From positions 1 through 21,094 of the IMG/VR virus record IMGVR_UViG_3300031977_001017: a stretch of DNA of 21,094 nucleotides; one strand, written 5' to 3'. Shown here piece after piece: positions 1,573 through 21,094 of the stretch (position 1 is the first letter of the stretch; each line of letters opens with the position of its first letter). A model generated the notes under the pieces. The model saw only the letters and a list, made by a program, of their open reading frames with translations. It did not search any database and was not told where the DNA came from. The DNA is from a virus. A program made the translations under genes and the position numbers.

Positions 1573-2466
1573 CTATGATAAAGTTCCGCACAGAGATAGC
1601 TTCTCATAAAACTGGTCGCCGTAAAAGTCTTCTGGCATCTGGTTGTGTTTCGATATATTTTCCTTCGCAGGAATTACTCGCAGATTCCACGGCACATGAA
1701 GACCGCATACTGTCTCACCGTTGCGCGGATAATAATGGTCAACGTGATACTTGTCACCAGTCCGGCGCGTCCTCTTCGCCGCTTCTTCATAAAAAGGGGC
1801 GAAGACTTGCGGGTCAATACCCTTCAGCGTTGATTGCCTCAAGTGCTTGCGGCGCAGTTGTGTCTTAAGTTTGCGTTGTTCTCTGTGTTCAATGTCCTCT
1901 GCCCAGCGTTGGCGCAGACGCTGTCGTGCGTGTTCCCGCCTGCCATCCCTTTTTTCTTGAGGAATGTCTAAATAATAACGCTGGTAATGGTCACGGTGAA
2001 AATTGGGATTTTCTTCTATACATTTATCCCGCCACGCCTTAAGACGTTCAGCACCGCCTCGCTTGTGGTAGTATTCGTAATGAGATTGCAAAACTTTCTC
2101 ATGGTTTTCACGCTTCCACCGCTTGTTAAATTCTTTGTGACAGATAACGCAATGACCGTATGGCAAAAACCTCTCTGCTAGATGACCGTTTGGGCATGGC
2201 TTGCCATTAAAATAAAACCGCTGTTTAGCCTTCTCGGCTTCTTGCCTAGTCATTATCTTACGACCCATTTCAGCCTCTAGCTTCTCGACATATTTCTGTC
2301 TTTGCTTCTTCAGCTTCTCTGGCGAGGACTTAAGACGGTTGCACTCTATGCAGACCCCCGAACCGCCAACATAACGAGGTGAGATATGCCCGTTCTTGCA
2401 CGGCTTGCCCGTAAAATACCGAGGCAAGCCTTTGTCTCTGGCTTCAGCCTTAGTAATGATTTCCAT
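1573..2466 (-). CDS. HNH endonuclease with two N-terminal zinc-binding modules
   Basis: This is a probable free-standing phage HNH nuclease of 297 residues. The start at 2466 is chosen over an upstream in-frame ATG because GGGAGATAGACATG supplies a ribosome site. Two similar modules occur: C23-x3-H27-x11-C39-x2-C42 and C91-x3-H95-x10-C106-x2-C109, each opening with an Arg- and aromatic-rich GKPC-x-NGH motif, likely zinc-binding. A long basic helical region (about 110-225) follows. The C-terminal HNH core shows H241-x-D243-H244, the WNL motif (N261), and N270 with H274. Such proteins cut DNA near their own insertion site (homing) or assist packaging; this one is far from the terminase and inside an accessory unit, so homing or mobile-gene behaviour is the likelier reading. 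The ribosome site and first five codons lie inside the preceding gene. Confidence 0.88.
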
Positions 2467-2659
2467 GTCTATCTCCCTTCCTCCGTGTCTCATACTGCCT
2501 GCGCCATACCAGCTTGTCATAGGCTCTCAGCGTTTCCCTGCTGATGGGTATCTTTTTGTCATCAGCATATTGGAACTGCTCGTTGAGCTGTTCGATGAGG
2601 GAATCAATCTCCCCCACCGAAAAGCGTACATCAAATCGTTTCCAGCAGATAGGCTTCAT
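2450..2659 (-). CDS. Unrecognised 69-aa basic protein
   Basis: The start at 2659 forms a TAATG overlap with the stop of the preceding 52-residue gene; an upstream ATG at 2710 is in frame but would run deep into that gene. Visible features are a [17 protein letters not shown] helix, [19 protein letters not shown], and a basic end [18 protein letters not shown]. This is helical and charged, compatible with a small nucleic-acid-binding or regulatory protein. No family is recognised. The tail overlaps the HNH start by 17 bases, which links the expression of the two. Confidence 0.7.
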
Positions 2660-9116: not shown

Positions 9117-10372
9117 TACATCATTTCCTTAGTCAGAATATCAAATTCACCAGTTATGCCGTTATAGAAAACATCGCCCTCTTTAATCGCACCGCTATCC
9201 ACCAGCTCAGTAAGCTCATCGTCAGTTGTGGCTCTCTTATAAACCTGACCTAGTTTTTCATCAGCAAATTTGCCAAAACCAAAGTCATCTCCGCGCTCTT
9301 TGACATAATCATCAAACAAGTCTAGGCGCTCTCGGTTATAATCCATAACCTGCTTCTGCATTGTCGCAATAACCAAGTTAGCCTCTGGAGAGTTTGACAT
9401 TTTTACAGTTGCGCTTGCAAAGAAGTCCATATCTCTGTCAGATGAAGCACCTGCACCCACAACCCTCATTCTGGGCGTTAAGAACGATGCGATACTGTTT
9501 ATGACCTCTAAATTGCTTAGGTTTTGAAGCTCCTCATCACCAAGAATATTTGCTTCTCTAGCCAACTGCTTTAGGGGTAGCATAGCAGACTGTAATCTGC
9601 CAGTTTCAGTGCCGGAGGCCAGCAGGTCAATCGCCTGCTGTAAGCGAACACCAAGTTCCCTGTCAGTATTTACCTGCTTCATCATATCTTTGCGAGTAGC
9701 CAAAGCCGCCTTGTAAGCCTCTTTCTTTTGCTCATCACCACCCATGAAAACAGTGCTTGGTTTCATCAGCATTTCTTGAACTTTTTTCTTGCCCTCTGGG
9801 GTGGTCGGGTCAATACCAGCAAGCGCCAGCTTTTTCTCAAAGTCTGATTTCTGTGACAACTTTGCCATAGCAATGCGGTCAGCCAAGTCGGCTCTCTTTT
9901 GCTCCTGATACGCCTTCATGCCAGCACTGAACATAGCGCCCAAGCCCTGACCAGTGGTGATAGGCTTATCCTGATAGCCTGACAGTTGCAAGCCAGTTGC
10001 GGCGGCTTCTGACAGCCCAGCAAATGCGGGCGTGCCAACTGCCGGAGTTAGCCTATCCATCAGGCTTGGCGGTGCTTTCGGAGCTTCCGGCTTCTGTGCG
10101 CCCAGACCCATCTTTGCGGCTAGGTCGCGCTGTAGGCTGGTCATGCCCCCGCCTGCTGGCAGGGCTGATATGTCTCTGATACCGCGCAGGCCAATCTCAG
10201 GCATGGGCGGGCGCTTCCGCACTATCGGAGTGCCTCTACGAGCAGTAGGCAGGCCACCTGTTATGGATGCGCTAGGACGAGCGCCTGCTGGTATGCTCCC
10301 ACGCAAGAGCTGGTTAAACAGTGCAGTGCCTGCCGCACCGCCACCACGAAATGTTGGTATGCCATTAGACAT
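9116..10372 (-). CDS. Putative internal virion protein, second of three
   Basis: This encodes 418 residues. It has a glycine-rich basic start (MSNGIPTFRGGGAAGTALFN), a proline/arginine-rich linker (about 40-80) and a helical, Lys/Met-rich centre (KADLADRI...KKEAYKAALATRKDMMKQV). The end is acidic and beta-like, with DSGAIKEGDVFYNGITGEF, a short motif in which a protein product is introduced by G-D-x-F-Y. It shares TAATG junctions with both neighbours, so the three ejection-type proteins are made in linked amounts. No domain is recognised; the virion role comes from genomic position and composition. Confidence 0.66.
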   Translation of the reverse strand: MSNGIPTFRGGGAAGTALFNQLLRGSIPAGARPSASITGGLPTARRGTPIVRKRPPMPEIGLRGIRDISALPAGGGMTSLQRDLAAKMGLGAQKPEAPKAPPSLMDRLTPAVGTPAFAGLSEAAATGLQLSGYQDKPITTGQGLGAMFSAGMKAYQEQKRADLADRIAMAKLSQKSDFEKKLALAGIDPTTPEGKKKVQEMLMKPSTVFMGGDEQKKEAYKAALATRKDMMKQVNTDRELGVRLQQAIDLLASGTETGRLQSAMLPLKQLAREANILGDEELQNLSNLEVINSIASFLTPRMRVVGAGASSDRDMDFFASATVKMSNSPEANLVIATMQKQVMDYNRERLDLFDDYVKERGDDFGFGKFADEKLGQVYKRATTDDELTELVDSGAIKEGDVFYNGITGEFDILTKEMM

Positions 10373-18441: not shown

Positions 18442-20454
18442 TTACCCTCTCGGTAGGTTGGTTGATATCTCTGCGTCAGTGTAAGCCTTGAGCTGTCTCA
18501 GCTCCGCCTCTGCCGCTAATTCCTGTCTGCGAAGCTCTAGCTCCATCTGCATCTTTTCGCGCTCCAGCTCGATTTCCATCATCATCCGCTCACGCTTCAG
18601 AGCAATCTCGGCCTGCAACTCTGCCTGCGCTGTCTGGTCTTGCTGTGGCGGCTGTTGTGCCATCTGCTGTTCCATCATAGCAATTTGCTCTGGGCTATTA
18701 AAGAACTGGTCAGCGTCCTTAAACCCGCCAATCTCTGCAATACTACGCAGGGTGTTCACATACTGCGACATAGTAACCACTGGATTGCCAGCACCCAACT
18801 GCATCAGGATTTGCTCTTGCTTACTAGCAATCTGCGTAAGGAACGCAATCTTTTGCTCGTCATCAGCCGTACCCAAGCCAACCTGAACCACAACATCAAA
18901 CTCGCTGTGCCACTCTCTAGGGTCAATCGGCACAAAGTTGTTACGAAGGCGAATAATGCGCGGTTTCTGGTCATACTTAGTCACCAAATGTAGGATGCCT
19001 CGGAACAAGTCCTTAACACCAGTTTCAGCCATAGTCCGTGCATAGCTCTCCAGCTTTACCTGAGCGCCGCGAACTGTCGCGCTGATAGCTGAGGCTGTAG
19101 TGCTTTGAAGGGCGTTAGCATCCAGACCTTGTGAAGCCTTGCTCATGCCTGTGCGCTGTTCTTTCAGGTTGTCGATGTAGTCCATTAGAGGCCGGACTTC
19201 ACCGCCTACAGGTGTGCCAGTAATAGGCTGAACCATGCCAGCTTGGCGCATTCTGATGATTCCTCCGGCTGTCCCATCTAAGACGTCATCAATATTTACC
19301 TGCCCCTCGACAATGCCCATGCGTGGCAGGGTGCTTGTATATACGCTGTCCAGATACTGCCGGAGCAGGGTAGACTTGATAACCTGCAAATCCTCGGTCA
19401 TGTCATAGATGGAACGCCCTATCAGGCGGTGCGGCATCATAATAGGGGTGACTACGGCAAATGGCACATGGTCAAATGGCTCATTGTGCAGTATCTCATC
19501 CGCACCCTCACCAATCGCACAAATCCGGCGAAGCTCTGCAATGCCATCGCCGTCATAATCCACCTTCATCACGCACTCGTAATAGATGACCTCCGCCAGT
19601 GCAGGGTCAGCCGCCTCGATGCCTGTATTGGCCTCTAAGTCTTGGAAGCGGTTGGAGCGCTCCTCATCGACATCAAGGCTATAAGAACCTGCGTACTTCT
19701 CGACAACATCCTTGTCGTAGCCCATAGCCACTAGGTCAGATACAGTCATCACAGTGCGGTGGGCAACAAAGTGGGCATCTTCTAATGAGGTTGCGCGGCG
19801 GTTTACCAAGAACTCTTCCGGCGGTACGTTCTCAATCTTAATCTTGCCCTTGCTTTCCTTGACCCGAACCTTGAGGCTGTAGGTCATGTCCATTGGCATC
19901 ATATCGCCAGTCATCTCGTCCTGAGCGTAGCTCTCGGCCTGCTCTTCGATAACGCCGACAACCTCGGTGTCAGGATTGCTAAGAAGGGCGGCAAGCTCAG
20001 TCTCGTTCAGGTTTTCGTATTCTTCTTCCCGAACATCCTCTTGCTCGTCCCAGTAATACTTGACCACGCCCAGCCGGAACATCAGCGCATCCTTGAACCA
20101 GTTGTATAATATCTTGTACCCCTGATTGTCATGGTTGATGACGTAGTTCACATAGTCGGAAATCTGCTCTGCACGTTCTGAATCTTCGGCAGTTCTGGCA
20201 TTAAAGCGCACATACTTGTCATTGGCTGTGAATACCCGCATGAGGTTGGGCATGATAGCCTCAATGGTGTCTGACACCTCGGTGCTGACAACTTGGGAGC
20301 GCCCCTCGACTTCATTGCCCATAGGTTCGCCAAGATAGAAATCCATAGCGCGAATACGCTCCTGACTGAACTCTTGGTCAAAGTGGTTCAGGCTGTCGCG
20401 TATCTCAGACGATACAATGCTATTAAGCTGATACTCGTCCATTTGCTCTGGCAT
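18442..20454 (-). CDS. Portal protein (P22/SU10-type)
   Basis: This encodes 670 residues with AAGGAAAGAAAA before ATG 20454; an upstream extension of 25 codons is rejected. Conserved portal features are QERIRAMDFYLGEPMGNE, GRSQVVSTEVSDTIEAIMPN, NKYVRF-like YVRFNAR, LYNWFKDALMFRLGVVKYYW, and an E-F-L-V-N-R-R-A-T-S core typical of the phage P22/podoviral group. The C-terminal 90 residues are a Gln/Glu/Met-rich coiled coil (about 575-660), corresponding to the barrel helix of P22-like portals. It forms the dodecameric DNA gate and nucleates capsid assembly. Its start is overlapped by the previous small gene. Confidence 0.92.
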   Translation of the reverse strand: MPEQMDEYQLNSIVSSEIRDSLNHFDQEFSQERIRAMDFYLGEPMGNEVEGRSQVVSTEVSDTIEAIMPNLMRVFTANDKYVRFNARTAEDSERAEQISDYVNYVINHDNQGYKILYNWFKDALMFRLGVVKYYWDEQEDVREEEYENLNETELAALLSNPDTEVVGVIEEQAESYAQDEMTGDMMPMDMTYSLKVRVKESKGKIKIENVPPEEFLVNRRATSLEDAHFVAHRTVMTVSDLVAMGYDKDVVEKYAGSYSLDVDEERSNRFQDLEANTGIEAADPALAEVIYYECVMKVDYDGDGIAELRRICAIGEGADEILHNEPFDHVPFAVVTPIMMPHRLIGRSIYDMTEDLQVIKSTLLRQYLDSVYTSTLPRMGIVEGQVNIDDVLDGTAGGIIRMRQAGMVQPITGTPVGGEVRPLMDYIDNLKEQRTGMSKASQGLDANALQSTTASAISATVRGAQVKLESYARTMAETGVKDLFRGILHLVTKYDQKPRIIRLRNNFVPIDPREWHSEFDVVVQVGLGTADDEQKIAFLTQIASKQEQILMQLGAGNPVVTMSQYVNTLRSIAEIGGFKDADQFFNSPEQIAMMEQQMAQQPPQQDQTAQAELQAEIALKRERMMMEIELEREKMQMELELRRQELAAEAELRQLKAYTDAEISTNLPRG

Positions 20455-20620
20455 TTTTCTTTCCTTTTGGCTTTGCCTTCTTGCCGTGCAGGCATTTAGC
20501 CTGTGCGTCACACATCTTGCGGGAGACACAACCGGAGCATCTCTCGTATGTTTCTACCACCTCTTCTACCTGCTTTACACGGGGCAGGCGTGGCCTTCTC
20601 ATTACCCGAACTACTTGCAT
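20423..20620 (-). CDS. Small four-cysteine protein with basic tail (65 aa)
   Basis: This encodes 65 residues. A basic Arg/Pro-rich start (MRRPRLPRVKQ) is followed by E-T-Y-E-R and cysteines C28, C31, C37 and C43 (C-x2-C-x5-C-x5-C), with A-Q three and four residues before the last Cys. A lysine-rich tail follows. The start makes a TGATG junction with the previous gene, and the end overlaps the portal start by 32 bases. The same cysteine spacing is present in the gene at 20808-20993, so the two are probably paralogues. A zinc-binding, nucleic-acid-associated role is likely from the basic tail; no function is known to me. Confidence 0.72.
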   Translation of the reverse strand: MQVVRVMRRPRLPRVKQVEEVVETYERCSGCVSRKMCDAQAKCLHGKKAKPKGKKNARANGRVSA

Positions 20621-20811
20621 CAGTCTGTGGAGTAGCTTCCTGTCATCCCGTTGTAAACCTTCTTGGCACGTTTTGGGCGCGGCTTAGGAGTAGGGATATT
20701 TGGGGTCATGTCAGCGTTATACATACCCTTGTTAATCGCCATTTCGTTACGCATACCCATGCCCGGACGGGGCGCAGGTGTTCCGATATTTACCTTTTTG
20801 CCGTAGTTCAT
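20620..20811 (-). CDS. Unrecognised 63-aa proline/lysine-rich protein
   Basis: This encodes 63 residues between two cysteine-motif genes, with ATGA and TGATG junctions. Sequence features are KKVNIGTPAPRPGMGMRNEM, TPNIPTPKPRPKRAKKVY and a short polar end. It is probably disordered, basic and proline-rich. No domain is recognised. The coupling suggests it is co-made with the flanking zinc-type proteins; a linker or nucleic-acid-binding peptide is imaginable but unsupported. Confidence 0.66.
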   Translation of the reverse strand: MNYGKKVNIGTPAPRPGMGMRNEMAINKGMYNADMTPNIPTPKPRPKRAKKVYNGMTGSYSTD

Positions 20812-20993
20812 TTCTTAGCCGCCTTTTTCTTGCCAGTTTTAATCTTGCCAGTCATGCCAATACCATTGCTTGTAATAACGGGATGCGGTACAGGCTCTGG
20901 TAATGTAACAGATACGCCGTCCTTTTTATAGGCTATACAGCGCTTTTGCGCTCCGCACCGATGCGGATAGGGGCAGTTATCACATAGGGTCAT
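20808..20993 (-). CDS. Small four-cysteine protein (61 aa), paralogue of the 65-aa gene
   Basis: This encodes 61 residues beginning MTLCDNCPYPHRCGAQKRC. The four cysteines (4, 7, 13, 19) have the same spacing as in the gene at 20423-20620, again with A-Q between the third and fourth Cys. The end is Lys-rich (KIKTGKKKAAKK). A proline-rich linker (LPEPVPHPV) joins the two parts. The fold is probably a small zinc knuckle with a basic tail, which could contact DNA or RNA. The start overlaps the previous stop as ATGA. Confidence 0.75.
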   Translation of the reverse strand: MTLCDNCPYPHRCGAQKRCIAYKKDGVSVTLPEPVPHPVITSNGIGMTGKIKTGKKKAAKK

Positions 20994-21094
20994 GTCTTTT
21001 TCCTTTTCTTCTTTGCTTTTCTTGCAACGTCTAGGGCTATGGCTGTGGCCTGTTTCCGGCTCTTGCCAGCCTTCATTTCCGCCGCGATGTTCTT
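20990..21094 (-). CDS. Partial small basic protein, cut by the window edge
   Basis: Only the last 34 residues are visible: KNIAAEMKAGKSRKQATAIA, then LDVARKAKKKRKKT. The A-G-K-x-R-K-Q-A-x-A-I-A-L motif with a Lys-rich tail is common at the ends of small phage proteins near packaging and head genes. The start lies beyond position 21094. The stop is in ATGA overlap with the next gene. Function is unassigned. Confidence 0.7.
   Translation of the reverse strand, partial: KNIAAEMKAGKSRKQATAIALDVARKAKKKRKKT

Follow-up and report, generated by a model that had tools for sequence, protein, structure and literature searches.

Two small basic four-cysteine proteins encoded upstream of the portal gene in phages with SU10-type head genes

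Overlapping small genes upstream of the portal gene

The window analyzed here is a 21,094-nt (21-kb) virus record, a phage fragment that encodes a portal protein and a major capsid protein of the SU10 type. Read along the minus strand, the genes are a small basic one truncated at the window end, gene A, a middle gene, gene B, and the portal gene (ATG at 20454; Table 1). The junctions along this run overlap by 4, 4, 1, and 32 nt, the first being the stop of the cut gene with the start of A and the last the portal start with B. No terminator-like site was found on the coding strand between the small genes and the portal gene, and all four small proteins are basic, with isoelectric points of 9.8 to 10.7 (9.8 for A and 10.6 for B; for the cut gene, a relative's protein was used). 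The arrangement bears out an earlier note on this DNA, which had described a coupled mini-operon of four basic proteins leading into the portal gene, with A and B flanking a proline- and lysine-rich gene; the ORFs lie on the minus strand at the positions in Table 1.

Table 1. Features of the small-gene run and the portal gene in the window
Feature	Position	Strand	Description
Small basic gene, 3' part, cut by the window end	20990..21094	-	46 aa in a relative (L046)
Gene A	20808..20993	-	Basic protein of 61 aa with a T41-x2-G44 motif and a Lys-rich tail; four-Cys motif spans residues 4-19; core gene in the phage group
Cys stretch of A, CDNCPYPHRCGAQKRC	20937..20984	-	Cx2Cx5Cx5C; four Cys and spacing kept in relatives
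Middle gene	20620..20811	-	63-aa Pro/Lys-rich protein; variable center; C-terminal G-x-[YF]-[AST] motif
Gene B	20423..20620	-	Very basic protein of 65 aa with N-terminal RVMRRP and a Lys-rich tail; four-Cys motif spans residues 28-43; confined to one portal clade
Cys stretch of B, CSGCVSRKMCDAQAKC	20492..20539	-	Cx2Cx5Cx5C
AAGGA, Shine-Dalgarno-like site of the portal gene	20462..20466	-	Within the codons of the Lys-rich tail of B
Portal gene, SU10 type	18442..20454	-	Pfam PF23899, E 6e-205; PHROG 1216

The window A protein begins MTLCDNCPYPHRCGAQKRCIAYKK and the window B protein contains YERCSGCVSRKMCDAQAKCLHGKK, and both carry the identical C-x2-C-x5-C-x5-C spacing that had been reported for them. 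Among the 88 ATG-started ORFs of at least 40 aa in the window, only these two show it. Shuffling predicts 0.19 occurrences of the corresponding DNA pattern per window, both strands counted, and 1 of 100 shuffles contained two; the probability that four randomly placed cysteines would fall into exactly this spacing is 8.8e-5 for A and 7.4e-5 for B.

Lysine-rich tails, also part of the earlier description, are present in both proteins, but part of the B tail coincides with the ribosome-binding site of the portal gene: the AAGGA core lies 7 nt before the portal ATG, inside lysine codons of B. Of 48 distinct upstreams, 46 have a Shine-Dalgarno-like core ahead of the portal start, a raw count in purine-rich DNA. 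Moreover, synonymous change (pS) is 0.23 in the B tail versus 0.50 in the B Cys stretch. Because of the embedded core and the reduced pS, the B tail is probably in part a coding consequence of translation signals. In the middle gene, the terminal glycine codon is GGA or GGG in 31 of 39 tails, versus 9 of 37 glycine codons in the window portal gene. Lysine-rich tails in gene runs of this kind should thus be interpreted with caution, as they partly mirror embedded ribosome-binding sites.

Two further features of the surroundings may be recorded here. The loci L218 to L222 lack the middle gene; there, B begins within the C-terminal coding region of A, in another frame, with an overlap of ~68 nt. 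At the other end of the window (1573-2520, minus strand), a 315-aa protein with several cysteine pairs has the look of an HNH or endonuclease VII-like enzyme, with no confident match in Pfam.

Conservation of gene A and clade restriction of gene B

Loci for comparison were chosen by their portal protein, not by the motif, and the upstream DNA was then examined. Each portal scan comprised the best 80 matches, the second being queried with a distant portal; relatives whose portal is less than ~65% identical are represented by five annotated phages only. Gene A with all four cysteines was present in 69 of 69 portal-anchored loci with at least 640 nt of upstream DNA (among the best 80 matches) and in 63 of 63 distinct upstreams of the second scan (again among the best 80), two sets that overlap, many contigs recurring in both. 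It was likewise present in all 68 distinct loci with 2.4 kb of upstream DNA, where nine other small basic gene types between terminase and portal each occur in 6 to 37 of the 68. Gene A is a core gene of this phage group, then, and its small basic neighbors come and go. Where the portal start could be placed, A-bearing loci have A 186 to 614 nt before it.

The four cysteines of A are invariant in both portal-picked sets (best 80 matches each), and the single exception to the spacing is one contig (L120/L226) that reads Cx2Cx6Cx5C, with a second gap of x6 rather than x5. Conservation at other positions was read from sub-alignments, in which M1, C4, C7, C13, C19, T41, and G44 are invariant among 30 A sequences and R9, C28, C31, V32, K35, C37, C43, and G46 among 19 B sequences. 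The Ala-Gln pair before the last cysteine, which the earlier note had counted as part of the motif, is variable in the alignment of relatives. Both TGT and TGC are used at every cysteine codon, in a count made on motif-picked genes that indicates codon freedom, not invariance. Unconserved cysteines or a disrupted frame, which the same note had named as evidence against its reading, were encountered nowhere in the relatives save in the short contig L155, where A has an early stop just 3' of an intact Cys stretch. The in-frame stop in this gene (L155, 2501 onward) arises through a small cluster of base changes and could reflect faulty assembly.

The pooled dN/dS values of A and B are 0.33 and 0.34, respectively, and pN/pS is at its minimum in the Cys stretch (0.28) and ~0.5 in the tails. 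Purifying selection of this kind argues that both genes encode real proteins, moderately constrained overall and most strongly so at the Cys stretch. A stretch of the portal gene gives a dN/dS of 0.105, a third of these values, and in this A and B differ from a tightly constrained structural subunit.

Gene B has a narrower distribution. It was found in 35 of the 69 portal-anchored loci with at least 640 nt upstream and in 37 of the 63 distinct upstreams of the second scan (each among the best 80 matches), and in 38 of the 68 distinct loci with 2.4 kb upstream. In a portal tree with four distant outgroups, the 49 rows with B and the 41 without it form two sister clades, with support of 87 and 90. 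B with its four cysteines is restricted to one of these clades and was therefore gained or lost once, the single change on the portal tree being either a gain in one stem or a loss in the other. In the sister clade, which lacks the B motif, the place of B is taken in several loci by a protein of the form MMVRRPxVGRIRR...KEVCDN...GAKKNG, which overlaps the portal start, opens with an RRP segment, closes with a KKNG tail, and keeps one cysteine. Its similarity to the B profile was matched by 1 of 100 column shuffles, and the likeness is suggestive of a B protein minus the knuckle.

Relationship of A and B to each other and to known proteins

The earlier note had proposed that A and B are the products of a local duplication. 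An alignment of window A with window B spans 21 residues, 8 of them identical, and the cysteines make up half of these 8; the probability given by hhalign for the two profiles is 10.6%; similarity outside the fixed Cys columns has a permutation p of 0.14 for all A against all B; and no DNA-level repeat between the two genes was found. The genes also have separate histories, A being present in all sampled relatives and B in one clade, and because of this clade pattern a recent local duplication is contradicted. What stands of the earlier interpretation is a coupled mini-operon with tiny basic four-Cys proteins whose cysteines are invariant in relatives; the local duplication is not supported. 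An older event, in which B came from duplication of the A knuckle or both came from an older copy and then diverged, is possible but on balance somewhat doubtful. The identical Cys spacing and the adjacency of A and B speak for it, as do the C-[ILMV]-x-G that follows the last cysteine both in B and in the A subtypes with C-x-x-G at this point (p = 0.05 for these subtypes versus B) and the single gene of L120, which reads RCLHGK, as B does. Against it stand, besides the profile probability, the permutation result, and the lack of DNA similarity already given, the N-terminal scaffold that B has of its own.

Searches of Pfam, PHROG, and PDB sequences with A and B gave chance-level matches only, and in Pfam neither the zinc-knuckle family nor the SPASM, Cas4, and WhiB-type families matched window A, window B, or 28 relatives of A. 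Among 50,697 annotated phages, significant matches were confined to C72C1 (OQ984150), the sole annotated carrier of both A and B. A scan of bacterial and archaeal genomes produced chance matches and no cellular homolog; two cellular-genome loci were rejected as homologs, the match lying in an antisense or unrelated frame. Five annotated portal relatives (41-45% identity) have no A- or B-like gene in the right frame, and literature on the motif spacing, phage C72C1, and the neighboring DUFs contained nothing useful. A and B are so far undescribed, and neither Pfam, PHROGs, nor the PDB offers a homolog whose function or structure is known. AlphaFold gave no confident fold (mean pLDDT ~63, pTM 0.21; one row, a public phage record, was left out of the input alignment), and in A only a hairpin stretch around residues 38-47 reaches pLDDT values in the 70s, so that a metal geometry is unsupported.

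Of known metal sites, the CCHC zinc knuckle of the retroviral nucleocapsid type shares with A and B a very short four-ligand stretch, a C-x2-C start, and a basic context. However, A and B have cysteine in place of histidine, 5/5 in place of 4/4 spacing, and no match in Pfam, so that the earlier designation as zinc-knuckle genes is not sustained in its strict sense (Cx2Cx4Hx4C): the relatives, too, read C-x2-C-x5-C-x5-C. One A subtype, the GHP type, reads C-N-N-C-G-H-P in the alignment, which we take to recall a zinc-knuckle turn. Most A members read CxxCP[YF]xxxC, resembling the CxxCPx4C part of Fe-S sites in SPASM, Cas4/AddB, and WhiB proteins. In contrast to those 4Fe-4S proteins, A and B have all four cysteines within 16 residues, the last preceded by x5, so that the fourth lies five residues on rather than three or far away, and they are tiny, have neither a catalytic nor a helix-turn-helix domain, and have no Pfam match. 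By spacing, then, A and B belong neither to the CCHC knuckles nor to the Fe-S signatures considered, and A members recall both.

The head genes have a clearer counterpart. The window shares with Kuravirus SU10 the order and families of the portal, scaffold, and capsid genes (SU10_portal, scaffold, SU10_MCP), but in SU10 no gene is annotated in the terminase-portal interval. Since no such gene is annotated there in SU10 or was seen in the right frame in the five portal relatives, the function of A is not general to SU10-type portals. In C72C1, whose portal is 89% identical to that of the window, A (WJE88103.1, hypothetical) and B occur in the same order; the reading frame of B is present but not annotated as a separate CDS, and genes of this size easily escape annotation. 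A group I intron interrupts the C72C1 major capsid gene after residue 107 (9157-9410, minus strand; Rfam RF00028, match 9210-9450, E 6e-21), and the resulting parts appear in the record as two genes, each called 'major head protein'; the window capsid gene, in contrast, is intact, and no Rfam match was found in the window.

Candidate functions of A and B

The reading we favor, tentatively and at a little short of an even chance, is that A is made late, binds metal, and serves as a basic accessory protein in head assembly or DNA packaging, with B as its clade-specific companion. In this marine phage group, A would be a small core component of the module for head assembly or packaging, and we propose that it is made late, together with the portal, because it would be translated from the portal message through overlapping stops and starts. 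Its four cysteines would hold one metal ion, with zinc likelier than an Fe-S cluster, and thereby fold a short N-terminal knuckle, and the T-x2-G hairpin and Lys-rich tail may make contact with nucleic acid or with a partner, for example the portal, the terminase, or the packaged genome. In B, which like A probably binds metal, an Arg/Pro-rich head precedes the Cys stretch and a Lys-rich tail follows it; the role of B is probably that of a companion. If A does act at the portal or on the packaged DNA, it would represent a factor for packaging or assembly to which the model SU10 system has no known counterpart; of the small genes followed in the terminase-portal interval, none is retained as consistently. 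A bolder version, in which A founds a family of obligate portal or packaging metal-knuckle proteins, universal in the group, with the knuckle a separable module, we consider unlikely; its modular part appeals to the B scaffold, which would carry the four-Cys insert in one clade and lack it in part of the sister clade.

Other readings differ in the metal, the target, or the role of the peptides. Both zinc and Fe-S clusters use all-Cys sites, so that sequence alone cannot separate them. An Fe-S cluster in A and B, serving redox sensing or regulation, would draw on the CxxCP[YF]xxxC of most A members, but the fourth ligand of SPASM, Cas4/AddB, and WhiB is at a different or distant position, Pfam gave no match, and the residue after the second cysteine varies (P, G, or A in A; V in B). 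Such a cluster seems improbable to us. Much the same low probability attaches to the proposal that A and B act on the host, binding host nucleic acid or inhibiting a host or defense factor, and merely lie beside the portal gene. The interval is indeed crowded with variable small basic genes, of the sort of place where accessory genes collect, and the rates of A and B exceed that of the portal; yet A is present in every sampled relative, versus 6-37 of 68 loci for the accessory genes, and is always directly linked to the portal. Finally, the small ORFs could serve chiefly as translational leaders, adjusting the dose of portal protein by way of their overlapping starts and stops, the peptides being of little importance. 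The four overlaps, the portal Shine-Dalgarno-like core in the preceding tail, the low pS of the B tail, and the glycine codon bias of the middle gene are all what such leaders would give. A leader needs no cysteines, however, and because these are kept in every sampled relative with TGT and TGC used freely, and purifying selection is concentrated on the Cys stretch, a protein function is demanded; we regard this last explanation as very unlikely.

The terminase-portal interval is itself changeable. In relatives, L053, L083, and L116 among them, it holds a varying set of tiny Lys-rich proteins, some DUF5872-, DUF5824-, or DUF6321-like and others of unnamed families such as GLYANI and GVSGYN; a function was found for none of these proteins. 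The gene directly upstream of A also varies between relatives; in L049 (2855-4456) its 533-aa product matches PF18760, a polyvalent-protein ADP-ribosyltransferase domain, weakly and at a score under the curated cut-off.
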